DNA of 14,900 nucleotides from a bacterium (lineage in GTDB: Bacteria > JALSQH01): contig JALSQH010000089.1 of NCBI GenBank assembly GCA_026985515.1, positions 1 to 14,900 on the forward strand, written 5' to 3'. Of the stretch, positions 1 to 14,900 are shown one piece after another. The position numbers were made by a program, and so were the translations under genes. The stretch's first letter is position 1, and each line of letters opens with the position of its first letter. Under the pieces are notes generated by a model. That model was not told the origin of the DNA. It searched no databases and saw only the letters and a list, made by a program, of their open reading frames with translations.

Positions 1-295
1 GTATGCCAGAAAAGTCAAAATGAAGTATGGCAAAACTGTTCCTCAGAGGAGTGGGATTCCTCCCTATGTAGGTATCCCCAAATAACTCCTCAAAATGCTC
101 CTTCATCCTGATGTCGTAGTAATGCTCCAAAATGGAGAGAAAGAGAGATTTACCAAATCTGCGGGGACGGAGAAAGAAGAGATAACGACTGCCAAGTTTC
201 TCCAGTTCTGGAATAAAATGGATCTTATCCACAAAATAGTAATTATCCCTCTTCAGCGAATCATAATTGGCAATACCATAGGGGATCTTCTTCAT
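1..295 (-). CDS. AAA-ATPase-like / DUF1703 family protein, 5' part only
   Basis: This is a partial gene: the first 98 codons are present without a stop, and the rest lies beyond the left edge. The N-terminus reads MKKIPYGIANYDSL, followed by YYFVDKIHFIPELEKLG and then FLRPRRFGKSLFLSIL. That order (short lead-in, a YxVDKT-like segment, then a RPRRFGKS phosphate-binding loop) is the signature of the AAA-ATPase-like family (PF09820), whose full-length members usually end in a DUF1703 PD-(D/E)XK nuclease-like domain. The P-loop is the family's own degenerate form and looks intact. The function of these proteins is unsettled; they are often multicopy and accessory. I chose ATG at 295 because it gives the family-typical start. 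No Shine-Dalgarno lies before it; a TGCTATAAT box just upstream suggests a leaderless mRNA. The C-terminal domain is inferred, not seen. Confidence 0.85.
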   Translation of the reverse strand, partial: MKKIPYGIANYDSLKRDNYYFVDKIHFIPELEKLGSRYLFFLRPRRFGKSLFLSILEHYYDIRMKEHFEELFGDTYIGRNPTPLRNSFAILHFDFSGI

Positions 296-485
296 GGGTA
301 TATTATAGCAGAGGGAGGGGAAAAGGGAAAGAATGCGCTTTAGCTCCAAAATAATCTTACCGAAAGCCGAGATCCTCAATAAAAATCTGGTCAATCCAGT
401 ATCTGCTTTTTATCTCTACAAATCAGCACATCTTCCGTTATCCAGAAGGTGACTCCAGATAAAGGAATTTTATTTACCCAATATC
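296..485. other. Intergenic stretch with no clear gene
   Basis: This is the ~190 bases between the glycerate kinase stop and the AAA-ATPase-like start; both neighbours are on the minus strand. It holds the candidate promoter at 302-330, half of an inverted repeat near 479-510, and a 32-codon minus-strand reading frame (391-489). I see no tRNA, no terminator with a U-tract and no recognisable family. Confidence 0.6.
302..330 (-). promoter_or_regulatory. Candidate extended -10 promoter for the AAA-ATPase-like gene
   Basis: On the minus strand a perfect TATAAT (307-302) is preceded by TGC, giving the extended -10 form TGnTATAAT. A weak -35-like TTTCCC (330-325) lies 17 bases upstream. Transcription would be expected to start around 295-296, at the ATG itself, so the message would be leaderless. 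The lack of a Shine-Dalgarno fits. This is inferred from sequence only. Confidence 0.5.
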
Positions 486-1623: not shown

Positions 1624-2925
1624 TCAAAAGATAAAGGGGAGTTCGTTTCGTTTATTCAACCTTCCCCTGAAGAATTTAAACAAGATGTGACCCCTCTCAA
1701 TTTTTTCTTCCTTTAACCTCTCTATCCACCTTTTTCTAAAATCTCTTATTCTCTCAATATAATCCTCCCGAAGTGTCTCGGTGTAATTTTTCAAAAGTTC
1801 CCCAACAAACTCTTTTTCTATCCTGTCTCTTTCAGCTCTGTACTCATTGAAAAGATACCATCTGTTTATCAGCATCCTTACCAGAACCTCATGTTCCCAC
1901 CACCAGGAGCCCTGGGTAAACACCCCATGTGGAGGAGAATCTTCAGGGATAAATTCATCAGAGGAAAATTTCACAGGTATGAAAAAGGATGTACATGGAA
2001 GGGAGGTGCCTGTGAAAAAAATGTCAAATTCTCCCTTACCCCGATATCTCACCACCATTGAATTTGCAGTCTGGCTTATCCTCACAAGAGGATCCACAGC
2101 ATGCATACACAGATCAGAATTACCACCCTTTGCAGGGTGAAAATCCTCCGATGAATGAGCTCTGTGAAGATCAAAAATTTTCCAGAGATCCACCTTTCCC
2201 ATCTCTTTCAATTTTCTCCCGAAAAGTTTTTTCCTCTCCTTTCCTCCAGCAAATGTGGTATAGAGCCAATCACTGTATGTTTTGAAAAGATCAATTTTGC
2301 CCCTATACGAAACGACCTTCCTTACATTTTTTCCTATTCCTTCAGAGACCTCATCATAGTCCGTTGAAAGGGAAATAATGTTGGATATTGATGTACTTCC
2401 ATCGACCTCTCTGAAAGCCCATTCCCTGCCGTAAGTTTCAAGAACTATCGCACCCTTGCCATCGACAATTAAAAAAGAATTGTCGTAGCGCAATTTCTTA
2501 TTTCTATGCCCACAGGGACCTTCCTGTCCATACTCAGCAAGCAAAGATGTAATAACCTCAACAGCTTCCTCCCTGTTTTTTGCTCTCTCAAGGGCGAGGC
2601 GAAGAAGGTCCATCCCGATGAGACCATAACTATCTTCCCTCTTCACCTTTGTGAAAATCGCCTCATTGCCGATGGCAAGACCAAACTCATTCACACCCAT
2701 TTCTGCTCCCCAGATCCAGTAGGGACGGGAGATGATGATCCCGTAGGTGTGTCTGACCTGGGGGATTTCAATGTATGTGGCCCTTAACCCTGCTCCGTCG
2801 GGATGGTCCTGCAGGGGGTGGATCTCCACCACCTGAGCCTCATCGGGCTCCCTGTCAGAATTCTTTCCAAAGTAAAAACTGCCATCTTCTGTATCTGCAG
2901 GGAAGATCACATATGTGTCACACAT
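1624..2925 (-). CDS. Secernin / peptidase C69-like Ntn-hydrolase
   Basis: Members of this family are N-terminal-nucleophile hydrolases: the Cys exposed by removal of Met attacks the substrate. Some are dipeptidases; for bacterial secernin-like proteins the substrate is mostly unknown. With ATG at 2925 the protein is 433 residues and begins MCDTYVIFPA, so Cys2 is the expected nucleophile. Further family marks are FGKNSDREPDEAQ (residues 19-31), YIEIPQVRHTYGIIISRPYW (51-70) and WGAEMGVNEFGLAIGNEA (72-89). A longer reading from GTG at 2964 would bury the Cys behind 13 extra residues with no signal-peptide character, so I reject it; ATG at 2928 is the other near choice. No Shine-Dalgarno is seen, and a -35/-10 pair just upstream suggests a leaderless mRNA. 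The C-terminal ~75 residues are charged and probably helical. No signal peptide; probably cytosolic. Confidence 0.85.
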   Translation of the reverse strand: MCDTYVIFPADTEDGSFYFGKNSDREPDEAQVVEIHPLQDHPDGAGLRATYIEIPQVRHTYGIIISRPYWIWGAEMGVNEFGLAIGNEAIFTKVKREDSYGLIGMDLLRLALERAKNREEAVEVITSLLAEYGQEGPCGHRNKKLRYDNSFLIVDGKGAIVLETYGREWAFREVDGSTSISNIISLSTDYDEVSEGIGKNVRKVVSYRGKIDLFKTYSDWLYTTFAGGKERKKLFGRKLKEMGKVDLWKIFDLHRAHSSEDFHPAKGGNSDLCMHAVDPLVRISQTANSMVVRYRGKGEFDIFFTGTSLPCTSFFIPVKFSSDEFIPEDSPPHGVFTQGSWWWEHEVLVRMLINRWYLFNEYRAERDRIEKEFVGELLKNYTETLREDYIERIRDFRKRWIERLKEEKIERGHILFKFFRGRLNKRNELPFIF

Positions 2926-2932
2926 CATATAA

Positions 2933-2961
2933 AGGATAGCATCACATACTCTCTTATTCAA
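2933..2961 (-). promoter_or_regulatory. Candidate promoter for the secernin-glycerate kinase pair
   Basis: On the minus strand TTGAAT (2961-2956) is followed after 17 bases by TATCCT (2938-2933), preceded by TGC, so the -10 is of the extended type. Transcription would begin about 2925-2927, at the ATG that starts the protein with Met-Cys. This fits the absent Shine-Dalgarno. Each hexamer matches only 4 of 6 consensus positions. Confidence 0.4.
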
Positions 2962-2975
2962 CACTTTATCCAGAA

Positions 2976-3004
2976 TTGCCCAACAAACTCATATGTGGTA
3001 AACT
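2976..3004 (+). promoter_or_regulatory. Candidate promoter for the RCC1-repeat lipoprotein gene
   Basis: TTGCCC (2976-2981) and TAAACT (2999-3004) are separated by 17 bases, and TGG precedes the -10, giving an extended -10. Transcription would start near 3011, leaving a short leader that carries the GGAGG site at 3020-3024. It sits about 15 bases from the divergent minus-strand promoter, so the two could share regulation. Confidence 0.4.
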
Positions 3005-3031
3005 CTAACTATCAAAGATGGAGGGGGATCA

Positions 3032-6000
3032 ATGAAAAAGGTCTTGCTGTTTTCCTTCATTTTTTTTATTTTTCTCGGATGCAGTGAAAATAACAGGAAG
3101 ACATCAATGGTAATCATTCATTTCCCTGGCATCGAAAGAAACAGAATATACAGTGGCTTCAATCCACTCCTTGAAGATAAAGAGGGTAATGAAATAACGG
3201 GAATTGGACTGGCAATAAGAACAAACGGAAAAACTGTAAAAAAAATATCCACCAGGTACCAGAGCAGTGTAACAGTTGAACTTGAATCAAGGAAAAGATA
3301 TATTTTTGAAGCATTCGCATGGGCTGATAAAGATGACAGGGAATCCCCATACATAATCTATTCGGGCAAAACCACCAGATATATTGATCAACCACGCGAA
3401 GAAATTGAAATAATTCTCAATTCACGAATTCATCTGGTTAAAGTTAACTTTAATTTCGGATCAGAAAAATTTCCCAGAATATCTTTCGTTTCAGATTTTC
3501 TTGCCACTGAAACACCATTTATTCAGATGTTAAATTTGCAACGCTTAAAAATCAATTCGCTTTATCTTCCACAGAATTTTCCCGTAAAAGTCCTGGCAAT
3601 CACACCTGAGGGGGATAGATCTGTACAGAAAAATCTGATCCCCTCCAGCAATCTCAATGTGGATCTCTCTCGCTGGACTTCTGAAAGGATCCAGAATTCA
3701 TATTTAGCTTCACTACACGGATCAGCAGTCAAATATGGGAAACCTCTCCTGGATGGAATCATTTTTCTTGTAAACCAGAATTACTTATACCAGCCCCAGC
3801 CACTCCATATAACTGAGCTTCCATCCATAGATATTCTGGCGGGAATCTCAGAATCAATAGGTGAGATAAAAAATGGAAAGTATGAACTCACAAACATTTT
3901 GCCCGGAAAATATTATGCAATCTTCATAGCCAATAAGGATGGTTCCACCAGGGTAGAAGATATTTTTGAGGGGCTAACCAGTGATCCCCTCTCCCTCGGT
4001 ACAATCTACAATGTAAAAGCTCAATATGTAAATCTGAGACCGGGTGATCTGGTAAAGCTGGAGACAGTTGACCTCACCCCACCACTCACATATTTAACCC
4101 GATATCCCACATATCCAAAACCACTGACCTACACGGGTACAGTATCAGGTACTTCGGCTCTTTTTGAATTTTTCTCTTCCGCAGAGTATGCAATTTTTGA
4201 ATGCAGTCTTGACGGAGGAGAATGGCATCTGTGCACATCCCCCTACAGCGTAAAAGTTGATGAAGGTATCCACACATTCAGTGTCAGGAGTATTGATCAG
4301 TATGGCAATCTGGGACCGGTGGTAACATATTCCTGGATTGTAAAAATAACAAAATGGAGAACAATCTCTACTGGACCCTCTCACGCATGTGGTGTAAAAG
4401 ATGATGGCACACTCTGGTGCTGGGGTTACAACTCGGAAGGAGAAGTGGGGGAACCGGGCAGAAGTTTCATAAGTTATCCTGAACAGATTTCTCCAACCAT
4501 TGAATGGGTTACAGTCTCGGCAGGTTACAATCATACCTGTGGAATTGATATAAATGGTGATCTCTACTGCTGGGGAGACAATTCATATGGAGAACTGGGA
4601 AACGGCACATTTGAAAATTCTCCCTATCCTGTGAAAGTTCTCTCATCTGAAAAATGGAGTGATGTTAAAGCAGGTTATCTCTTTACCTGTGGACTCACGA
4701 CTGACAACATAATGGAGTGCTGGGGAGATAACACCTCGGGTAAACTTGGTGACGGTGGTATTGAGGGATACAGAAACTATCCTTCACCCGTGACAGGCCC
4801 TTTTTACTGGGAGAAATTTGCTGTGGGTGATAACCACACCTGTGCCATAAACATGAATGATCATACAGTATGGTGCTGGGGCAAAAATAATAACTACCAG
4901 CTTGGGATAACAACAGTCTCATATTCCTCTTCGCCAACACGAGCCTCTACCAGAAGATGGCTGGATATTTCGGCGAGCAGTGACCATACCTGTGCAGTTT
5001 CGGAAGATGGATCTCTCTGGTGCTGGGGATATGAAAATTATTTCCCGGGAGATGTTGAGTTCTACTATGGTATGACGCAGGGATCCACCGGTAACCCCCC
5101 TCATAAAGTTACTGACTCAACCGACTGGACCAGTGTGAGCTGTGGGGTACACCAGAACTGCGCTTTGAAGAATGATGGATCGCTTTGGTGCTGGGGTAGA
5201 AATGTGAGAGGTGTGTTGATGGATCTTCAGGGTAACATCATCCTCACCCCGGTGCAAACAGGTACATCCAGCTGGCAAAAAATAAGCATCGGAGATGATT
5301 ATATATGTGCCATTAAAGATGATGGAACATTGTGGTGCTGGGGTAAAAACAATGAGGGCGAAGTGGGAACAGGTGAATCAGGCATAACACTCTATCCAGA
5401 GTATATTTCCTCAAAAACGATAGACAACTTCGCTTTACTTTCAGCAGGATCCAGCTTTGTAATTGCCACATCATATGATTCAAGTGAACTGTATGGATGG
5501 GGTAAAAACATTGATCATGAGATATTCTCATATCCGGAATTGTTAACCGAGTCTCCCTTCTTCATGGGGAAAATAACAGAGGTTTCATATATCTCCTCAG
5601 GATTCAACCATGTGTGTGTCATAGCAGGGAGCAGTGACTCTCTCCTCTGCTGGGGTGATAACAGTGCAGGAGAAATTGGCAACGGTATAACCTCAGACTC
5701 TGTAACATCCCCCACAACCGTCACCTCTGGTGTCTTTCAGGTCTCAGCAGGGGCTGGTTACACCTGTGCCATATTCAGCGACTCAGCATTGAAATGCTGG
5801 GGTACCAATAATCGTGGACAGTTAGGTACAGGTAATACACAGGAACTTCACTCTCCAACCCTTATCGGCACCAACTGGCAGTACATTTCCACCTCAAAAT
5901 TTCCATGGCATCAGTCCACATGTGGTATCAAAACAGACGGCTCACTATGGTGCTGGGGTGATAACAACTGGGGTCAGGGTGGAAGTGGATTCTATTCAGA

Positions 6001-6496
6001 AAAAATAACCATCCCTGTCCAGTCAGGTACGGGGAATAACTGGAGTAAAGTCTCTGTGGGCGGAAGACATGTATGCGCAATTGACAACTCCTACAATCTC
6101 TACTGCTGGGGTGACAATGGATATGGGCAACTGGGACTTGGAAAGGGAAGCGAAGCCGAATACAACACACCGCAGTTTGTTGGCACAGACTTTATTGATG
6201 TCTCAGCTGGTTCCAACCATACCTGTGGTGTGAAACTTGATGGCTCAGTCTGGTGCTGGGGTGACAATTCAGCGGGGCAGGTAGGTGCAGGGGATATAAA
6301 CTTAACATATTCATCTCCAGTGATGGTTATTGATTCCGGGGGAATTATGGTTGAAACCGGGGAGGGATTCACCTGCGCAGTGCGACAAACAGAATATGAC
6401 CACTACTCACTTATGTGCTGGGGTAATAATTACTACGGTGAGACAGGAAACGGGAAAGGATGGTCCTACCATCCCGTTAAAGTTACGACAAAATAG
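3032..6496 (+). CDS. Secreted lipoprotein with 14 RCC1-type propeller repeats
   Basis: A 1154-residue protein beginning MKKVLLFSFIFFIFLGCSEN: a signal peptide with a lipobox-like FLGC, so Cys17 is probably lipidated. Residues ~20-430 are beta-rich. They include a carboxypeptidase-regulatory-like stretch near 275-305 (NGKYELTNILPGKYYAIF) and an Ig-like module at ~380-435 (FECSLDGGEWHLC ... GIHTFSVRSIDQYGN). From ~440 to the end run 14 RCC1-type repeats, each with H-x-C-(A/G)-(V/I) and later (L/V)-x-CWG-x-N. The CWG Cys lie at 463, 513, 563, 615, 664, 720, 769, 873, 922, 974, 1025, 1075 and 1129; the eighth repeat has GWG at 822. Fourteen repeats fit two seven-bladed propellers. The start has a strong GGAGG site 7 bases upstream. 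Cell-envelope location is inferred; the ligand is unknown. It is flanked by its own promoter and by that of lon, so it is probably monocistronic. Confidence 0.9.
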   Translation: MKKVLLFSFIFFIFLGCSENNRKTSMVIIHFPGIERNRIYSGFNPLLEDKEGNEITGIGLAIRTNGKTVKKISTRYQSSVTVELESRKRYIFEAFAWADKDDRESPYIIYSGKTTRYIDQPREEIEIILNSRIHLVKVNFNFGSEKFPRISFVSDFLATETPFIQMLNLQRLKINSLYLPQNFPVKVLAITPEGDRSVQKNLIPSSNLNVDLSRWTSERIQNSYLASLHGSAVKYGKPLLDGIIFLVNQNYLYQPQPLHITELPSIDILAGISESIGEIKNGKYELTNILPGKYYAIFIANKDGSTRVEDIFEGLTSDPLSLGTIYNVKAQYVNLRPGDLVKLETVDLTPPLTYLTRYPTYPKPLTYTGTVSGTSALFEFFSSAEYAIFECSLDGGEWHLCTSPYSVKVDEGIHTFSVRSIDQYGNLGPVVTYSWIVKITKWRTISTGPSHACGVKDDGTLWCWGYNSEGEVGEPGRSFISYPEQISPTIEWVTVSAGYNHTCGIDINGDLYCWGDNSYGELGNGTFENSPYPVKVLSSEKWSDVKAGYLFTCGLTTDNIMECWGDNTSGKLGDGGIEGYRNYPSPVTGPFYWEKFAVGDNHTCAINMNDHTVWCWGKNNNYQLGITTVSYSSSPTRASTRRWLDISASSDHTCAVSEDGSLWCWGYENYFPGDVEFYYGMTQGSTGNPPHKVTDSTDWTSVSCGVHQNCALKNDGSLWCWGRNVRGVLMDLQGNIILTPVQTGTSSWQKISIGDDYICAIKDDGTLWCWGKNNEGEVGTGESGITLYPEYISSKTIDNFALLSAGSSFVIATSYDSSELYGWGKNIDHEIFSYPELLTESPFFMGKITEVSYISSGFNHVCVIAGSSDSLLCWGDNSAGEIGNGITSDSVTSPTTVTSGVFQVSAGAGYTCAIFSDSALKCWGTNNRGQLGTGNTQELHSPTLIGTNWQYISTSKFPWHQSTCGIKTDGSLWCWGDNNWGQGGSGFYSEKITIPVQSGTGNNWSKVSVGGRHVCAIDNSYNLYCWGDNGYGQLGLGKGSEAEYNTPQFVGTDFIDVSAGSNHTCGVKLDGSVWCWGDNSAGQVGAGDINLTYSSPVMVIDSGGIMVETGEGFTCAVRQTEYDHYSLMCWGNNYYGETGNGKGWSYHPVKVTTK
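4345..6490 (+). repeat. Fourteen in-gene tandem repeats (~150 bases each) encoding RCC1 blades
   Basis: The period is 49-56 codons, and the best-conserved DNA core is the tggtgctggggt-like segment that encodes WCWG. The repeats have diverged at the DNA level, so this is old protein-repeat duplication and not a recent array. Spacing between successive cores is 50, 50, 52, 49, 56, 49, 53, 51, 49, 52, 51, 50 and 54 residues. Confidence 0.85.
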
Positions 6497-6579: not shown

Positions 6580-8961
6580 ATGTTCAGACACTTCAGACAT
6601 GATGAAAGGAAAGTTTTACCGCTTGTAATTCTGAGCAGCGAAATACTGTTCCCACACCGCCACATGGATCTAATCATTCCCGACAGAAAAAATAGACTCG
6701 CGCTATCCAGAGCCACTGAAAGAGATGAGAATGTGGCTATATTTTTCAGAACAGGATTTGAAGAAGATCCTCCTGAAATGATGGGGGTTGAAGCAGAAGT
6801 TATCTCTCTGAGGGAACTGGCAAATGGAAGCTACAGGGTAAATCTTCTTGGAAAGCGAAGAATAATTTTGAGGGATATTTTAAGAGAAGAGGAGTCTCTC
6901 TCGGCAGTTGTTGAACCGATGAAAGAAGATCTGAACATAACCCTTGAAGAAAAAGCAATGTTTCTCAATATGATAGAATCACTCAAGGAATACTCACACC
7001 TGAAAGATCGTGATGTGCCTGTGACTCTGAACAGAAAAGAATGGGCTCCCCCGGCAATGAGTGAAATTATAGATGCCATTCCGGAATTTATGGAACTGGC
7101 TCCAGAGAAAAGTTACCCCCTCCTGAAAGAAAGTAACCTGGGGGAAAGAATCAAAATCGCCTTTGAACTTGTTGAAAAAGAACTGGTAATCCTGAAATTG
7201 CAGAAAAAGATCAAGGAGGATGTAAAAAAGCAGATCGAGAAAAACCAGAAGGAGTACTACCTAAACGAGCAGTTAAAAGCCATCCAGAAAGAACTGGGGC
7301 ACTTCGAGTCCTTCAAAGAAGAGATAACACAGCTGGAACAGAAAATATCTGAAAAGGATCTACCACCCAGAGTAAAAGAAGTCGCACTCAGAGAACTGAA
7401 AAAACTCAATTCAATGCAGCCCACCTCTGCAGAGGCAACTGTTGTGAGGAACTACCTTGACTGGATACTCTCCCTTCCATGGAAGGAGAAAACCAGAGAC
7501 AGATTGAGTCTTTCAAGGGCGAAAAAGATACTTGACAGGGACCATTATGGGCTGGAAAAGGTTAAGGAGAGAATCATTGAATACCTCGCAGTAAAAAAAC
7601 TGAATCGTAAGTTCAGGGGAAACATACTCTGCTTTGTTGGACCTCCAGGTGTCGGGAAAACATCACTTGCAAAATCCATTGCAAAATCTCTTGGGAGAAA
7701 ATTTGTGAGAATATCTCTTGGTGGAGTGAAGGATGAAGCGGAAATACGGGGACACAGAAGAACCTATGTGGGAGCTCTGCCCGGAAAAATAATTCAGGGA
7801 ATGAGAAAGGCAGGGACCATAAATCCAGTCTTTCTCATGGACGAAATCGATAAACTCTCATCTGACTATCGTGGAGATCCCGCATCAGCCCTTCTTGAAG
7901 TTCTGGACCCCGAGCAGAACAACGCATTTCTCGATCACTACCTTGATATTGAGTATGACCTCTCCAATGTTTTCTTTATCACTACAGCCAATTATCTTCC
8001 TGCCATCCCTCCGCCCCTCAGGGACAGAATGGAGATAATCCCCATTGAAGGTTACACAGAACATGAAAAAGTGGAAATTGCTCTGAGACACTTGATCCCC
8101 AAGCAGAAAAAGGAACATGGACTGGGAAAGGTCAAAATAGAATTCAGCCGCGAAGCCATCCTCAAAATAATCAATGAATACACCAGAGAAGCTGGGGTAA
8201 GAAATCTGGAGAGAGAAATTGCAAAGATTATGAGAAAGATTGCCATGGAAGTTGCCACATCAAGGAAGAAAAAAGATGAGATCCATATCGTTATTGATGT
8301 GGACAGCATAGAAACCTATCTTGGCATACCCAGGTTCAAGAGCATTGGAACAGAAAAGATACTCATTCCCGGCATCGTCAACGGACTTGCCTGGACCGAA
8401 TATGGAGGAGAGCTTCTCATAATTGAAACCACCATCATACCCGGCAGCGGTAAGTTGACCCTCACGGGGAAACTGGGAGATGTGATGAAGGAATCCTCTC
8501 AGGCTGCCCTCACCTACATCAGATCCATATCGGAGGAGCTTGGTATTGAAGAGGATTTTTATAAAAAGTATGACATTCATGTTCATGTTCCAGAAGGGGC
8601 AGTACCAAAGGATGGTCCCTCTGCAGGTATTGCCATTGCAATCTCCATTGCCTCTGCTCTCACCGGCAGGGTGGTTGATTCACAAATAGCAATGACAGGG
8701 GAAATAACTCTCAGGGGAAGGGTGCTGCCAGTAGGAGGAATAAGAGAAAAACTGCTCGCAGCCCATAGAGAACACATAAAGAAGGTAATTATACCCGCTG
8801 AAAACATCCCTCACCTGGAGGAAATTCCCGATTTTGTCAAAGAAGAGTTAACCATCATACCTGTGGAACACATGGATGAAGTGGTAAAAATCACTCTTGG
8901 AAAAGAGATTGTCAGGTCACTAATCGTTGAATCTGAGGAAGAAAACAACCTTTTTCTATAA
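6580..8961 (+). CDS. lon: ATP-dependent Lon protease
   Basis: Lon is a homohexameric cytosolic protease that unfolds and degrades damaged and regulatory proteins. The 793-residue product matches the usual ~780-810. The N-terminal substrate-binding domain begins with LPLVILSSEILFPH (residues ~13-26); a long charged coiled region follows at ~195-290. The AAA+ module has Walker A GPPGVGKTS (354-362, Lys360) and Walker B FLMDEID (418-424). The C-terminal protease domain has PKDGPSAG with catalytic Ser681 and GGIREKLLAA with catalytic Lys724; the Ser-Lys spacing of 43 equals that of E. coli Lon (679/722). All key residues are present. ATG at 6580 has GAGGT upstream and its own promoter. It is the first gene of the run that continues through yebC and ruvCAB. 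Confidence 0.98.
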   Translation: MFRHFRHDERKVLPLVILSSEILFPHRHMDLIIPDRKNRLALSRATERDENVAIFFRTGFEEDPPEMMGVEAEVISLRELANGSYRVNLLGKRRIILRDILREEESLSAVVEPMKEDLNITLEEKAMFLNMIESLKEYSHLKDRDVPVTLNRKEWAPPAMSEIIDAIPEFMELAPEKSYPLLKESNLGERIKIAFELVEKELVILKLQKKIKEDVKKQIEKNQKEYYLNEQLKAIQKELGHFESFKEEITQLEQKISEKDLPPRVKEVALRELKKLNSMQPTSAEATVVRNYLDWILSLPWKEKTRDRLSLSRAKKILDRDHYGLEKVKERIIEYLAVKKLNRKFRGNILCFVGPPGVGKTSLAKSIAKSLGRKFVRISLGGVKDEAEIRGHRRTYVGALPGKIIQGMRKAGTINPVFLMDEIDKLSSDYRGDPASALLEVLDPEQNNAFLDHYLDIEYDLSNVFFITTANYLPAIPPPLRDRMEIIPIEGYTEHEKVEIALRHLIPKQKKEHGLGKVKIEFSREAILKIINEYTREAGVRNLEREIAKIMRKIAMEVATSRKKKDEIHIVIDVDSIETYLGIPRFKSIGTEKILIPGIVNGLAWTEYGGELLIIETTIIPGSGKLTLTGKLGDVMKESSQAALTYIRSISEELGIEEDFYKKYDIHVHVPEGAVPKDGPSAGIAIAISIASALTGRVVDSQIAMTGEITLRGRVLPVGGIREKLLAAHREHIKKVIIPAENIPHLEEIPDFVKEELTIIPVEHMDEVVKITLGKEIVRSLIVESEEENNLFL

Positions 8962-8982: not shown

Positions 8983-9741
8983 ATGTCTGGACACAATAAA
9001 TGGAGTTCTATTAAACACAAAAAAGCAAAAGAGGACGCAAAAAGGGGAAAACTTTTCAGCAAACTGATAAGGGAGATTCAGGTTGCAGCGAGGATGGGTG
9101 GAGGAAATCCTGACACCAATCCCCGCCTCAGAGCAGTCATTGAAAAGGCTAAAGCTGCCAACATGCCTCAGGAGAATATCATAAGGGCAATTAAAAAGGG
9201 AACCGGAGAGCTGGAAGGTGGAGCAAAATATGAGGAGGTCATTTACGAAGGTTATGGACCCAACGGAGTGGCAGTAATGGTAAAAGCTCTGACCGATAAC
9301 AAGAGAAGGACTGCTGCTGATGTCAGACATATCTTCTCAAAATATGGTGGCAGCCTGGGTGAAACAGGCTGTGTTTCCTGGTTATTCAATGAGAGAGGAT
9401 ACTTCCTCTTCAACAAAGATGAAGTTGACCCTGATCAGGTAATGGAGATAGCCCTTGATGCGGGAGCAGAGGACATAAATGAACCTGAAGACGACAATAT
9501 TATCGAAGTAATCACAGATGTAAAAGACTTTGAAAAAGTTAAAAAAGCCTTTGATGAAGCTGGAATCAAGTACACCAGTGCCCAGATATCAATGATTCCT
9601 CAAACACAGGTGAAATTGAGTGGAAAGGCGGCTGAACAGATGTTGAAACTCATGGAGGCTCTGGAGGAACTGGATGATGTTGATGAAGTTTATGCAAACT
9701 TTGATATTTCCGTTGAAGAGATGGAAAAGTTAGCATCATAG
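8983..9741 (+). CDS. yebC: YebC/PmpR/TACO1 family protein
   Basis: A 252-residue member of the YebC family (DUF28), near the usual 240-250. The start [20 protein letters not shown] is diagnostic, followed by [35 protein letters not shown] and [10 protein letters not shown]. Older work describes members as transcription regulators; mitochondrial TACO1 and more recent bacterial work support a role in helping ribosomes through difficult (proline-rich) stretches. Which role holds here cannot be read off. The gene has a strong GGAGGT site (8973-8978) four bases before the ATG and lies 21 bases after lon. yebC directly before ruvC is a widespread arrangement. The acidic C-terminal part is normal for the family. 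Confidence 0.96.
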
Positions 9742-9746
9742 TGTAA

Positions 9747-10217
9747 ATGAGGATTTTAGGCATAGATCCTGGAACAAAAATTGTGGGACTGGGGATTATA
9801 GAGGTAAAAGATGGAAAGATCAGTTATGTTCACCATTCTTCCCTTGACCTGAGAAGGGAAAAGGACAGCAGAAAGAAGTTAGTCCAGGTATTCAGGAAAG
9901 TTTCAGAAATCGTTACTCAATACAGGATAGATGAAATTTCCCTTGAAAAGGCATACAGTGGAAAAGACTATCATGCATCTGAACTGTTAAACCAGGTTCG
10001 TGGAATTATTCTGCTGATAGGGGGATTGAAAAACATACCAGTTTTTGAATATCCTCCCGCAAAGGTTAAAAGAATTGTAACCGGTAATGGACGGGCTGAA
10101 AAATTTGAAGTTGCCAGAATTGTTGAATACACTCTCTCCCAAAAGCTTGATGGAACCCACGATTCCACCGATGCTCTTGCTCTTGCTCTCTGCAGATACT
10201 ATGTCTCAAAGGAATAA
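9747..10217 (+). CDS. ruvC: Holliday-junction resolvase RuvC
   Basis: RuvC is a dimeric endonuclease that nicks Holliday junctions symmetrically after RuvAB branch migration. The 156-residue protein is a little shorter than E. coli RuvC (173). Motif I is MRILGIDPGTKIVGLGII with Asp7. The second acidic residue is Glu67 in ISLEKAYSGKDYHAS, and the C-terminal pair is Asp139 and Asp142 in HDSTDALALALC, so all four metal-binding acids are present. VKRIVTGNGRAEK (107-119) is also typical. The ATG lies 5 bases after the yebC stop with no clear Shine-Dalgarno, so re-initiation after yebC is likely. The short length comes from a trimmed C-terminus, not a break. Confidence 0.95.
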   Translation: MRILGIDPGTKIVGLGIIEVKDGKISYVHHSSLDLRREKDSRKKLVQVFRKVSEIVTQYRIDEISLEKAYSGKDYHASELLNQVRGIILLIGGLKNIPVFEYPPAKVKRIVTGNGRAEKFEVARIVEYTLSQKLDGTHDSTDALALALCRYYVSKE

Positions 10218-10220
10218 AAT

Positions 10221-10817
10221 ATGATTGGTTTTTTAAGAGGAAGAATCCTTGAAATACAAAGAGACAGGATCCTGATTGATGTGGGTGGAATTGGATTTGA
10301 AGTTAAGGTCCCCCTCAGATTGATTGAAGAGCCACAATTCTCAGAAGGTGACACAATTGAACTTTACATCCACACTCACTTTTACTCACAGGAATTTAAA
10401 TTTGAGCTTTTTGGGTTTGAAACACCTGAAGAAAAGGATCTTTTCAGAATCCTGGTATCAGTTCCCACAGTGGGTACGAAACTGGCTCTTTCCATTCTCT
10501 CCACCTTTTCATTTCCGGAACTGGCCACTATAATTTTAAGTGGGGATGCCGATGCTCTTACCCGTGCCAGAGGTGTTGGAAGAAAGGTGGCGGAGATGTT
10601 AATAGTTGAACTCAAAGACAAGATAAAGGACCTTGGTGTTGAAGACATTAAAAACCTCTCCATCCTCAACGATGTTACAGCTGCTCTGAGATCCCTTGAT
10701 TATTCAGAAAGTGAGTCGAGAAAACTTGCCAAAAAAGCTGTAGAGATAAAGGGTGAAAATGCCACCCTGGAGGAATTGATAGCCCTCGCAATTTCTCTTG
10801 GAAGGGGAGAAAGATGA
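10221..10817 (+). CDS. ruvA: Holliday-junction branch-migration protein RuvA
   Basis: RuvA binds the four-way junction as a tetramer and loads RuvB. The 198 residues match the family (~200). The N-terminal OB-fold domain starts MIGFLRGRILEIQRDRILID with VGGIGFEV next. Two helix-hairpin-helix motifs follow: VPTVGTKLALSIL (~80-92), where the usual GIGPK is TVGTK, and ARGVGRKVAEMLIVELKDKI. A short C-terminal domain (~150-198) is the RuvB-contacting part; its ATAALRSLDYSESE-like stretch fits. AAAGGA (10208-10213), inside the ruvC end, serves the ATG. It overlaps ruvB by 4 bases (ATGA), which implies coupled translation. Confidence 0.96.
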   Translation: MIGFLRGRILEIQRDRILIDVGGIGFEVKVPLRLIEEPQFSEGDTIELYIHTHFYSQEFKFELFGFETPEEKDLFRILVSVPTVGTKLALSILSTFSFPELATIILSGDADALTRARGVGRKVAEMLIVELKDKIKDLGVEDIKNLSILNDVTAALRSLDYSESESRKLAKKAVEIKGENATLEELIALAISLGRGER

Positions 10818-11803
10818 GTGATTACAATAAATTGAGGCCCACAACTTTTGATGAGTATGTCGGTCAGACGGAAATTAAAAAAAACTTGAAAATTGCCATA
10901 CAGGCCGCCATGGAACGGGGAGAGACCCTCGAACATATTCTGCTCTATGGACCTCCCGGACTTGGCAAAACCACCCTTGCCATGGTTATAGCCAGCGAAC
11001 TTGGGGTTGATATTATCACGACAACTGCTCCTGCCATTGCACAGAAAAAGGATCTTGCTGCAATTTTAACCTCCATTGAGAAGGAGGGAACTGTACTCTT
11101 TATTGATGAAATCCACAGACTCTCCAGAGTTGTGGAAGAAATGCTCTACTCTGCCATGGAGGATTTCGTACTCCATATTATGATAGGCGAGGGAGCAGGA
11201 GCGAGACCCATAAGAATCCCGATACCACCCTTCACCCTCATTGGTGCCACCACCCGTGCAGGTAAAATCAGTTCTCCCATGAGAGACAGATTTGGCATGT
11301 CTTTCAGACTTGATTACTATGGTGTGGAAGAATTAATGGAGATTCTTTTCAGATCAGCCACCATCATGAATGTGGAACTCACAGAGGGAGGAGCGAGGGC
11401 AATTGCTGAAAGATCCAAGGGAACTCCCAGAATTGCAAACAGACTTCTCAAAAGGGTCAGGGATTTTGCCCAGTTGAGAAATAACAACATTATCAATGAA
11501 GAAATAGCCCTTGAAGCCTTTAAAGAACTGGGCATTGATGAACTTGGACTTACCAGAGAAGACAGGGAGTATCTGACAGCCCTTGTTCATAAATTCAATG
11601 GAGGACCTGTGGGAATTGATTCAATTTCCACCGCCCTCAATGAGGAAAAGGACACCGTTGAAGATGTAATTGAACCATATCTCATGAGAATTGGTCTTAT
11701 TCAGAGAACTCAGAAGGGGAGAAAGGCAACAGCAGTGACTTACCGCTACATGGGACTACCGGTGAAAGGTCAGGGAGAACTTTTTGATGGAAAAGATAGT
11801 TGA
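10814..11803 (+). CDS. ruvB: Holliday-junction branch-migration ATPase RuvB
   Basis: RuvB is the hexameric AAA+ motor that drives branch migration with RuvA. The 329 residues match the family. It begins LRPTTFDEYVGQTEIKKNL. Walker A is GPPGLGKTT (46-54, Lys52), Walker B is LFIDEIHRL (Asp98/Glu99), and the sensor region GATTRAG is at 144-150, followed by RDRFGMSFRLDYY. The C-terminal winged-helix has GGPVGIDSISTALNE and ends in EPYLMRIGLIQRTQKGRKAT. The gene is complete. It starts inside the ruvA stop (ATGA), and the next gene starts 17 bases before the ruvB stop, so ruvA, ruvB and the kinase gene are tightly linked. Confidence 0.98.
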   Translation: MSDYNKLRPTTFDEYVGQTEIKKNLKIAIQAAMERGETLEHILLYGPPGLGKTTLAMVIASELGVDIITTTAPAIAQKKDLAAILTSIEKEGTVLFIDEIHRLSRVVEEMLYSAMEDFVLHIMIGEGAGARPIRIPIPPFTLIGATTRAGKISSPMRDRFGMSFRLDYYGVEELMEILFRSATIMNVELTEGGARAIAERSKGTPRIANRLLKRVRDFAQLRNNNIINEEIALEAFKELGIDELGLTREDREYLTALVHKFNGGPVGIDSISTALNEEKDTVEDVIEPYLMRIGLIQRTQKGRKATAVTYRYMGLPVKGQGELFDGKDS

Positions 11804-14255
11804 GATTTTGACCAGTTTCTACGAAAAGTTGCTTGATATTACCGGTCAGATTCTCCCATGGATAGAAAGCAGAGAATACAGAAGTTATGTGGTGGCAGGA
11901 GCTGGCATAGCCTTAATTTTTCTCCTCTACAGGTTGTTCCTCTCAGGGAGCAGGAAGAAAAATTTCACTCTTCCCCCACCCGGGAAACAACTTTCAAAAA
12001 GGGAGAAAGAAAAATACAGGAAAATAGCAGAAGGACTCGTGAAGGAGGGAGATATAACAAAAGCAGCGGACATTTACAGAATAATTGGAGAGATTCCGAG
12101 AGCTGTGGAACTCTATCATAAGAGCGGAAAAACAATCATGGCAGCTCAACTGGCATCTGAGCATAACCTCAATGAATCTGCTGCCCTTCTCTATGAAAAG
12201 GCTGGAAGATTCATGGAAGCTGCAGAAGAATGGGAGAAAGCGGGAAACTACCAGAAAGCGGTGGAAGCCTATCTCAAAGAAAAGAGTTTTGTAAAGGCAG
12301 CTGAGCTTCTCAGCAGAATCAACCAGCATGAGAAAGCTGCCGAGGTGTATGAAAGAGGAGAATATCTGGAGAAAGCCATAGAAGAATACATAAAGGCAAA
12401 GAATTACAAAAAGGCCTCTCAACTGCTATACAAAGTTTACAGAGACGAAAAGAAGTCCCTTGAGTCTCAGCAATCAATGAATCCCAACAGGATAAAAGAC
12501 CTCAAAAAACTTGCACTGAAGACAGCCACATATCTGGAGCTCGCCGGAGAGTATGAAAGGGCAATGGAAATGTATGAAGAGGGGGGGAATTACGCCAAAG
12601 CGGCGGAAATTGCAGGAATTCTTGATATGTGGGAAAAGGCAGCAGAGTATTACCACATGGCTGGCTTACCCCTCAAGGCAGCAGAAATTTACGAAAAATT
12701 GGGGGATAAAAAGAGAGCTGCCCAGATCAGGGCAGAGGTTTATGAAAAAGAAGGTGACGAACTTTCTGCGGCGGAGAGTTATCTCCAGAGTGGAGATTAT
12801 CTTTCAGCTGCAGAAATATTCAAAAGACATGGAAAATACTCCAGGGCTGGAGAACTCTACCTGAAAGCTGGGGATTATGCCCTTGCCGCCGATATGTTTG
12901 CCACAGATGGGAAATTTGAAAAAGCAGCGATGAGTTACGAAAAGGCAGGGGATTACCTTGCCGCGGCAGATATGTACAGAAAGGCAAACAACATTAAAAA
13001 AGTTATAGAAATGTTGATAAAGGGCGGGCAAATAGTTGAAGCTGTCTCTCTTTCTTCAAAAAGCGACACCCTGGAAAATGCCGTTAAACTTCTTGAGCAA
13101 CTTAAAGGGAACTCCGAAGAGCTGACAGAAGCTGTAACTGCCGTTTTGAAAGTTTATCTTGAGAGAAATCAATGGGAAGAGGCAAAAAAAATATATGAAA
13201 AGTACAATCAAATAGAGGTCAGAAGGAACAATCTTGACATAATGTACACCCTGGCAGCAAGATATGAAAAAGAAGGTGATTACGAAAAGGCATTCGATAT
13301 ATACAGAAAATTCATTGATAAAAAACTCTTCTACAAAGATGTGAAACAGAAATATGAACTCCTCAGAGCGAAGCTGGAAACGAAGAAAATAACCGGGGAA
13401 AAAAATCAGGAATCATCCTCTGAGTCTCCCGGAGTTCAGAAGGGAAGAAAAAGATACCAGATTCTACGCGAACTTGGAAGGGGAGGGATGGGAGTGGTTT
13501 ATCAGGCTCACGATACAGTACTTGACAGGATAGTGGCACTGAAGGTTCTCCCCCTTTCTCTGAGATTGAATCCCATTGCCATTGCGAATTTCAAAAGTGA
13601 GGCGAAGAAGGCTGCCGCCTTAAATCATCCGAACATCGTGACAATATATGATTATGGGGAAGATGATGGAGAATACTACCTCGTCATGGAATACATAGAT
13701 GGAATCACACTGAGGGATTACATAAAAAGGAAGGGAAGATTAAATCTGAAGGAGGTCCTCTTCATAGGGGTAAGTGTGGCAAAGGGCCTCGCCTATGCTC
13801 ACAGATCAAACCTTATCCACAGAGATATAAAGCCGTCCAACATTATGATAAGTATCAAAGATAAGGAATGGAGAGTTAAGATTGCGGACTTCGGACTCGC
13901 AAGAGCATGGCAGGATACAGCTCAGCACCAGACGATGGTGGTTGGTACTCCATACTACATGTCTCCAGAGCAATTTCTTGGTGAGAAGGTTGATGAAAGG
14001 AGTGATATTTACTCCTTTGGAGCAACTCTCTATGAAATGGTTACTGGAGAAGTACCATTTAAAAAAGGGGAGATAGGATTTCATCATGTCCATACCCCTC
14101 CCACCCCACCAAGTGAAATAGTACCAGATGTTGACAAGGGACTGGAAAGAATAATCCTCAAGTGCATGGAAAAAGATCCAAACGATAGATTTCAGAATAT
14201 GGAAGAGGTCATAGCAGCTTTTAAGGAAATCAGAGGAAGGATGTCAAAATCATGA
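11787..14255 (+). CDS. Membrane-anchored helical-repeat protein with C-terminal Ser/Thr kinase
   Basis: Three parts are seen in 822 residues. One membrane segment lies at ~34-52 (VVAGAGIALIFLLYRLFL), followed by basic SRKK, so the rest is predicted cytoplasmic. Residues ~70-530 form an alpha-solenoid of about 20-residue units of the pattern Y-x-KAGxY-x-KAAE, with a break at ~214-250 and a more TPR-like end (~480-530). A polar linker (~533-556) leads to a Hanks-type kinase (~558-815): GRGGMGVVY (564-572), ALK with Lys586, HRDIKPSN (678-685), DFG (701-703) and MSPEQ; all catalytic residues are present. Classic bacterial kinases carry the kinase N-terminal and the sensor outside the membrane; here both repeats and kinase lie inside. 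ATG at 11787 has GGGAG upstream; a TTG just before it is less likely. Overlap with ruvB by 17 bases implies coupling. Substrates and ligand are unknown. Confidence 0.9.
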   Translation: MEKIVEILTSFYEKLLDITGQILPWIESREYRSYVVAGAGIALIFLLYRLFLSGSRKKNFTLPPPGKQLSKREKEKYRKIAEGLVKEGDITKAADIYRIIGEIPRAVELYHKSGKTIMAAQLASEHNLNESAALLYEKAGRFMEAAEEWEKAGNYQKAVEAYLKEKSFVKAAELLSRINQHEKAAEVYERGEYLEKAIEEYIKAKNYKKASQLLYKVYRDEKKSLESQQSMNPNRIKDLKKLALKTATYLELAGEYERAMEMYEEGGNYAKAAEIAGILDMWEKAAEYYHMAGLPLKAAEIYEKLGDKKRAAQIRAEVYEKEGDELSAAESYLQSGDYLSAAEIFKRHGKYSRAGELYLKAGDYALAADMFATDGKFEKAAMSYEKAGDYLAAADMYRKANNIKKVIEMLIKGGQIVEAVSLSSKSDTLENAVKLLEQLKGNSEELTEAVTAVLKVYLERNQWEEAKKIYEKYNQIEVRRNNLDIMYTLAARYEKEGDYEKAFDIYRKFIDKKLFYKDVKQKYELLRAKLETKKITGEKNQESSSESPGVQKGRKRYQILRELGRGGMGVVYQAHDTVLDRIVALKVLPLSLRLNPIAIANFKSEAKKAAALNHPNIVTIYDYGEDDGEYYLVMEYIDGITLRDYIKRKGRLNLKEVLFIGVSVAKGLAYAHRSNLIHRDIKPSNIMISIKDKEWRVKIADFGLARAWQDTAQHQTMVVGTPYYMSPEQFLGEKVDERSDIYSFGATLYEMVTGEVPFKKGEIGFHHVHTPPTPPSEIVPDVDKGLERIILKCMEKDPNDRFQNMEEVIAAFKEIRGRMSKS
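11994..13390 (+). repeat. In-gene array of ~20-residue helical repeats
   Basis: About twenty units of roughly 20 residues, with the recurring pattern aromatic-x-x-(A/S)G-(D/N/K)-(Y/F)-x-x-A-A. Examples are YEKAGRFMEAAEEW, WEKAGNYQKAVEAY, YEEGGNYAKAAEI, YLKAGDYALAADMF and YEKAGDYLAAADMY. The unit is shorter than the 34-residue TPR and resembles half-repeats of a continuous solenoid. The same pattern recurs in the gene at 14481. Confidence 0.8.
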
Positions 14256-14479
14256 TGGGGGGAATTGGTAAGTTCCTGATAATAACTGGAATTATTCTGA
14301 TTCTTTTCGGTCTCATCATCCTTCTGGGAGATAAACTCCCTGCTCTTGGGAAACTTCCGGGTGATATCCACATTTCGAAGGGAAACTTCCACTTTTACTT
14401 CCCCCTCATGACCTCTATTATTCTGAGCATTGTTCTCAGCATTGTTATCACAATAATTGCAAAATTACTGAGCAAGTAA
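14252..14479 (+). CDS. DUF2905 family small membrane protein
   Basis: A 75-residue protein with two predicted membrane segments, ~6-26 (GKFLIITGIILILFGLIIL) and ~51-72 (PLMTSIILSIVLSIVITIIA). The loop between them reads LPALGKLPGDIHI, then NFHFYFPLMTS, the conserved core of DUF2905 (PF11146). The function of the family is unknown; from memory it is often encoded near ruvB, which fits here. The ATG overlaps the kinase stop as ATGA, with GAGGAAGG (14233-14240) upstream; a second ATG at 14255 would remove only one residue. It lies between two helical-repeat proteins, so a membrane partner role is possible but is inference. Confidence 0.85.
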   Translation: MMGGIGKFLIITGIILILFGLIILLGDKLPALGKLPGDIHISKGNFHFYFPLMTSIILSIVLSIVITIIAKLLSK

Positions 14480-14480
14480 A

Positions 14481-14900
14481 ATGATCTTCAGAAAAAAGAA
14501 AAAATACGAATTTCTTCCTCTTGAAGCAACTACAAAAGAGGGGAAAAAGAAGCTGAAGAAAGCTGAAAAACTTGAGAGTACAGGCCATTTTAAAGAAGCC
14601 GCTGACCTCTACAGAGAAATCTCAATGTTCTCCGAGGCAAAGGAGCTGTATAAAAGAGCGGGAGCATACAGAGAACTGGGAGATCTTTTGCTTGAAGAGG
14701 GAGACAGAATCGCCGCTGCATCCTTTTACGAAAAAGCAGGGGACAAGGCCCTTGCCGCAAAACTCTACGAAGAAAGCGGCAAATATCTTCTGGCAGCCAA
14801 ACTCTATATGGAGACAGGTGATACTGTTCATGCTGCAGAACTTTTCTACAGAGGTGGAGAATTTCAAAAGGCGGGGGATCTCTTTTTCCGCAATGGATTA
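14481..14900 (+). CDS. Helical-repeat protein related to the upstream kinase, 3' end missing
   Basis: The frame is open for 140 codons from ATG 14481 to the right edge with no stop. It begins MIFRKKKKYEFLPLEATTK, a basic start with no membrane segment in what is visible. From about residue 26 it carries the same ~20-residue helical repeat as the kinase gene: FKEAADLYREISMFSEAKEL, YKRAGAYRELGDLL, FYEKAGDKALAAKLY, YEESGKYLLAAKLY, METGDTVHAAELFYRGGEFQKAGDLF. It starts 1 base after the DUF2905 stop with only a weak binding site, so translation is probably coupled. Whether it ends in a kinase domain, as its neighbour does, lies outside the window. Confidence 0.85.
   Translation, partial: MIFRKKKKYEFLPLEATTKEGKKKLKKAEKLESTGHFKEAADLYREISMFSEAKELYKRAGAYRELGDLLLEEGDRIAAASFYEKAGDKALAAKLYEESGKYLLAAKLYMETGDTVHAAELFYRGGEFQKAGDLFFRNGL

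Follow-up and report, generated by a model that had tools for sequence, protein, structure and literature searches.

Array-kinase 1, the 822-aa product of an intact open reading frame at positions 11787-14255 (+ strand, ATG at 11787) of the window, is a Hanks kinase with an unusual and conserved genomic partner, the Holliday-junction gene ruvB. The window is the whole contig C89 (14,900 bases) of a 2.36-Mb genome. The pairing of ruvB with a kinase that carries a helical array recurs in four distantly related lineages of phylum rank, namely the bacterium's own family, two other rare phyla (one represented by G015, the other by G041), and Myxococcota. Three observations are firm: the anatomy of the protein, its operon-like gene organization and the repeated occurrence of the linkage. 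On this basis, array-kinase 1 is tentatively interpreted as a membrane-tethered scaffold kinase that is co-produced with the RuvABC machinery and that most likely adjusts Holliday-junction processing to a membrane or cell-cycle signal. Control of this processing by phosphorylation is hardly explored in bacteria, and full-text literature searches returned no report of a kinase linked to ruvB or ruvABC. A kinase found next to ruvABC across four phylum-level lineages, and whose ATG falls within ruvB in two or more of these, offers a concrete candidate for such control that can be tested.

Gene layout of the ruvB-kinase locus

Array-kinase 1 belongs to a tight run of genes on the + strand. The run is headed by lon (6580-8961; TIGR00763, E 1.5e-281), followed by yebC, a member of the YebC/PmpR/TACO1 family (8983-9741; PF01709 and PF20772), ruvC, encoding the Holliday junction resolvase (9747-10217; PF02075, E 1.6e-30), ruvA (10221-10817; TIGR00084, E 2.8e-47) and ruvB (10814-11803; TIGR00635/PRK00080, E down to 1e-140). 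Downstream of array-kinase 1 are a gene for a small DUF2905 protein (14255-14479; PF11146, E 4.1e-23), which begins on the final base of the kinase gene, and the 5′ part of a second array-kinase gene, array-kinase 2 (14481-14900), whose product has no membrane helix. Both of these genes had been missed in the preliminary description of this DNA. The intergenic distances from lon through yebC, ruvC, ruvA, ruvB, array-kinase 1 and DUF2905 to array-kinase 2 are 21, 5, 3, -4, -17, -1 and 1 bases.

The ATG of array-kinase 1 lies inside ruvB, and the last 17 bases of ruvB are common to both genes, exactly the overlap counted in the preliminary description. An AGGGAG sequence at 11772-11777 (+), within ruvB and 9 nt upstream of the ATG, is the likely ribosome-binding site of the kinase gene. 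The results showed that promoter- and terminator-like sites are as numerous in the window as in shuffled sequences and that none is located at the ruvB/kinase junction; an Rfam search for an RNA element at this junction gave no match anywhere in the window. The earlier proposal that the kinase is made together with RuvB is well supported by the gene overlap, by the lack of a separating promoter- or terminator-like site above chance, and by the presence of the linkage in four lineages of phylum rank. The proposed connection to Lon is weaker: lon heads the tight run in the window, but the link was seen in this genome only. A gene located 83 bases 5′ of lon (3032-6496, +) encodes a protein of 1154 aa that begins like a lipoprotein (FIFLGC) and contains about 12 RCC1 repeats. 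An open reading frame at 2-394 (-) is cut by the contig end and by eye looks like the beginning of an AAA-ATPase-like protein, with an LRPRRFGKS motif.

The end of the window (14753-14900) overlaps the start of contig C217 (L002, 1-148) over 148 bases that differ at one position only (T/C at 14879), and the assembly break inside array-kinase 2 is more suggestive of strain variation than of a true end. C217 carries the rest of array-kinase 2 (L002, 1-2014), including a complete kinase domain, to give about 760 aa in all. Convergent with it, at 2004-3335 (-) of L002, is a gene for a protein with GAF and adenylate/guanylate cyclase domains, in which an N-terminal FHA domain is apparent by eye.

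Architecture of array-kinase 1

Hydropathy analysis showed a conserved, strongly hydrophobic membrane helix at residues 35-53 (11889-11945). Because the sequence SRKK comes directly after these hydrophobic residues, the array and the kinase domain are predicted to be cytoplasmic. The helical array spans about residues 71-535 in the structure prediction, in agreement with the solenoid of about 460 residues proposed earlier, and is followed by a PknB-type Ser/Thr kinase domain at residues 555-815 (13449-14231; PF00069 match over residues 557-804, E 8.8e-58). The order given in the preliminary description, membrane anchor, solenoid and intact C-terminal Hanks kinase, is thereby borne out. Its statement that this order reverses the common bacterial layout holds less well: the reversed order is the normal one within the large array-kinase family.

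The best PDB matches of the kinase domain are PknB structures (E ~1e-58), and its predicted model matches PknB/PknA. The domain has a complete kinase fold with the VAxK lysine, the alphaC Glu, HRD, DFG and the APE-type Glu that define Hanks-type kinases; the catalytic residues K586, E605, D680, N685, D701 and E728 are all present and are invariant in five homologues. Phosphotransfer to Ser/Thr is the presumed activity of array-kinase 1. Reversible signalling is possible, because the genome has one match to a PP2C-type phosphatase, which is encoded away from the locus. The kinase domain resembles that of the PknB/Stk1 PASTA-type Hanks kinases, and the NCBIfam PASTA-kinase model covers the kinase part only. 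In PASTA kinases, however, the kinase is N-terminal and the PASTA domains are extracellular, whereas here the kinase is C-terminal, the solenoid is predicted to be cytoplasmic and no PASTA match was obtained. Assignment to Stk1/PASTA kinases (NF033483) was rejected, since the score is 348.5 bits against a curated cut-off of 450, the kinase is C-terminal and PASTA domains are absent.

The array is built of repeats of 13 residues, not of about 20 as first described. Identity autocorrelation over residues 60-440 gave z = 12.7, 10.9 and 8.9 at lags 13, 26 and 39, with no signal near lag 20, and the same periodicity was found by autocorrelation in the arrays of relatives. In the AlphaFold model (mean pLDDT 85 for the whole protein and 91 for the array alone) each unit consists of a 10-residue helix and a 3-residue turn, with about 24 units in total, and the predicted helices start at residues 90, 103, 116, 129 and so on, in register with the sequence repeat. 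The model and the autocorrelation place ten consecutive units at residues 89-218 (12051-12440), five at residues 254-318 (12546-12740) and nine at residues 323-439 (12753-13103). Longer TPR-like helices, predicted at residues 444-535 (13116-13391), form the joint between array and kinase. A 20-residue repeat is ruled out by the autocorrelation and the predicted structure, and a canonical 34-residue TPR was also rejected, as the period in residues 60-440 is 13/26 and only residues 444-535 are TPR-like. The array consensus is approximately GDYxKAAELYxKA.

The sole PDB sequence matches to the array are subunits of the intraflagellar-transport complex IFT-A (best E 2e-11), and IFT-A chains also top the Foldseek list. 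Since SNAP, LGN and other TPR solenoids have Z-scores similar to those of IFT-A, this likeness reflects the type of solenoid rather than a specific relationship. Short-helix repeats are common to the array and to IFT-A, SNAP and TPR-type alpha-solenoids; the rmsd over the full length is large and only the solenoid type is in common. In contrast to IFT-A/COPI-like coats, which have N-terminal WD40 propellers, the array is fused to a kinase and occurs in bacteria. Identification as an IFT-A/COPI-like eukaryotic coat protein was rejected, as no WD40 match was obtained and the solenoid alone is similar.

Recurrence of the ruvB linkage

A survey of genomes for ruvB followed by this architecture had been proposed as a check, with linkage in this genome alone as the refuting outcome. 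The results showed ruvB directly or closely upstream of the array-kinase gene, on the same strand, in other genomes of four phylum-level lineages, and linkage by chance or in one genome only is ruled out by this recurrence. The gene order common to the linked lineages is yebC-ruvC-ruvA-ruvB with an array-kinase gene after it. In G001, from another genus of the family, ruvA, ruvB and an array gene lie on one short contig, and the array is 59% identical. In G015 the order is yebC-ruvC-ruvA-ruvB-kinase, with the kinase gene overlapping ruvB, and a second array-kinase gene follows a DUF2905 gene on another contig (L048, 3739-6332), as in the window. The DUF2905-array-kinase order in G015 suggests that ruvB-kinase-DUF2905-kinase may be an old arrangement. 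Three genomes represent the phylum of G041: the array-kinase gene is about 2.5 kb past ruvC-ruvA-ruvB in G041 and G060, and the kinase contig of G059 is not long enough to show the linkage either way. Between ruvB and the array-kinase gene of G041 (L047, 4223-6522) are genes for a 581-aa pentapeptide-repeat protein and QueH.

In Myxococcota, a strong array match was found in 59 of 282 genomes, and ruvB is upstream on the same strand in 35 of the 44 array-kinase loci with flanks (L199-L242). Among the nine loci without upstream ruvB, one starts at a contig edge and seven form a separate clade. An intervening gene between ruvB and the kinase gene occurs in some Myxococcota, as in G041 and G060, and is on the opposite strand in several Myxococcota. 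The gene lpxC lies directly 3′ of the ruv-linked array-kinase gene in L202 (11409-12437) and in about 29 other loci.

The downstream neighbours of the kinase gene vary: they encode DUF2905 in the window, subunits of 2-hydroxyglutaryl-CoA dehydratase in G015, an acetyltransferase of the GNAT type in G041 and LpxC in most Myxococcota loci. Because the downstream genes differ between the linked lineages and the upstream ruv genes do not, ruv is the constant partner. The junction is also shared. In the window, G001 and G015, which belong to two phyla, it reads CTT TTT GAT G; the C-terminus of RuvB consists of -LFD and a few further residues, and the ATG of the kinase gene is taken from GAT G. This common overlap is supporting rather than decisive, as it could be favoured merely because RuvB often ends in -LFD. 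We estimate the chance of three independent placements after ruvB at about 1e-7 (taking ~25 array-kinases in the broad sample, a 3-kb same-strand window and genomes of ~3.5 Mb), a figure that excludes coincidence but not inheritance, as the lineages may share one ancestral placement.

The array-kinase family is broad and mostly without ruv linkage. Among 386 diverse genomes, 33 have a match at E < 1e-30, a few of these being array-only proteins; at E < 1e-60 an array-kinase was found in 21 of 198 genomes of a Nitrospirota sample and in 40 of 199 of an Acidobacteriota sample (phyla assigned on the basis of the named loci L062 and L063). In these two samples ruvB was within 1.5 kb of the array-kinase gene in none of 51 loci, and no ruvB was found near an array-kinase gene among the loci examined outside the linked lineages. 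A tree built from the C-terminal 430 residues does not bring the ruv-linked kinases together; the best tree that unites them is 28 log units worse (p-AU 0.038). A single clade of these kinases is unsupported in this analysis, in which long branches play a part. Proteins of about 530 aa that consist of the array only, carry the repeat found in array-kinase 1 and have no adjacent kinase-domain match were seen in three genomes (L254, L257 and L259; G602, G469 and G035, respectively). The findings point to a large and scarcely described bacterial kinase family whose 13-residue-repeat solenoid is akin to those of eukaryotic transport coats.

Possible functions and known systems

In the scaffold-kinase interpretation, the kinase would be translated with RuvB from the yebC-ruvC-ruvA-ruvB operon and tethered at the membrane by its N-terminal helix, the 13-residue-repeat alpha-solenoid would bind and recruit partner proteins, and the C-terminal PknB-type domain would phosphorylate what the solenoid recruits. 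The input may be a membrane or cell-cycle signal. The kinase probably acts on or near the RuvABC machinery; candidate substrates are RuvA, RuvB, RuvC or YebC, or the Ruv machinery may be recruited. Intact kinase motifs, the solenoid, the gene spacing, the recurring ruv order and the common junction codons speak for this interpretation. Against it stand the intervening genes in G041, G060 and some Myxococcota, the many relatives not beside ruvB, a tree that does not unite the ruv-linked kinases and, in Myxococcota, a kinase-lpxC block about as conserved as ruvB-kinase. The pairing suggests, without proving, that in the bacteria that have it the late steps of DNA recombination may be under the control of protein phosphorylation, and a role in repair is a directly testable hypothesis. 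A more specific version, in which a dedicated RuvABC kinase, co-translated with RuvB in several phyla, switches branch migration or resolution by phosphorylation, appears rather unlikely. Its logic would be like that of eukaryotes, where cell-cycle kinases control junction resolvases.

The main rival of the Ruv-kinase interpretation is stable housekeeping gene order. The protein could be a membrane kinase for general signalling that relies on the steady transcription of the ruv operon for its expression, in a block that is rarely broken, and its substrates could be unrelated to Ruv. This is a serious if doubtful possibility, to which the location of most relatives elsewhere, the inclusion of lpxC in the Myxococcota block and the unrelated pentapeptide-repeat and QueH genes in G041 all lend weight; however, such an explanation has to accommodate a pairing kept in four phylum-level lineages despite differing downstream genes and the same start-codon overlap with RuvB in two phyla. 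Improbable, but in keeping with the conserved membrane helix, is a kinase whose partners are envelope or membrane proteins from neighbouring genes (DUF2905 in the window, LpxC in Myxococcota) and which would link signalling to envelope growth or division and not to repair. DUF2905 adjoins an array-kinase gene both here and in G015, and lpxC is downstream in most of the Myxococcota loci examined, but either gene is present in some lineages only, whereas ruvB is present in all linked ones. A role in phage defence, like that of the kinases PD-T4-6 and Mad6, is very hard to credit: PADLOC models give matches as strong as E 1e-95, but among the matches listed all fall on the generic kinase domain (about residues 534-822), the surrounding genes have housekeeping functions and no further defence gene was seen, so that neither a match beyond the kinase domain nor a defence context places the protein with PD-T4-6 or Mad6.

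For the idea of a kinase that acts on the Ruv machinery, two other systems provide precedents that speak for the scaffold-kinase interpretation. The Bacillus subtilis kinase YabT is, like array-kinase 1, a membrane-bound Hanks kinase that lacks a sensor outside the cell, and it acts on recombination by phosphorylating RecA (PMC3708118). It differs in being anchored by a C-terminal membrane helix (PMC6333020), whereas the helix of array-kinase 1 is at residues 35-53, and in being activated by DNA. A YabT-like DNA-damage kinase was rejected, as no membrane helix follows the C-terminal kinase domain of array-kinase 1. To our knowledge, YabT is without a solenoid, and the Holliday junction resolvase Hjc of Sulfolobus is unrelated to RuvC. 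Three Sulfolobus kinases, two of them described as having TPR, phosphorylate Hjc in vitro; mimicking phosphorylation at S34 (the site of the Rio kinase) abolished cleavage, and a T138 phosphomimic had no clear effect (PMC6555300, PMC5682000). The TPR-bearing kinases SiRe_2056 and SiRe_2030, one of which has an N-terminal membrane helix, are likened to the array-kinase by description only and are archaeal, unlike the bacterial array-kinase (PMC5682000, PMC6555300).
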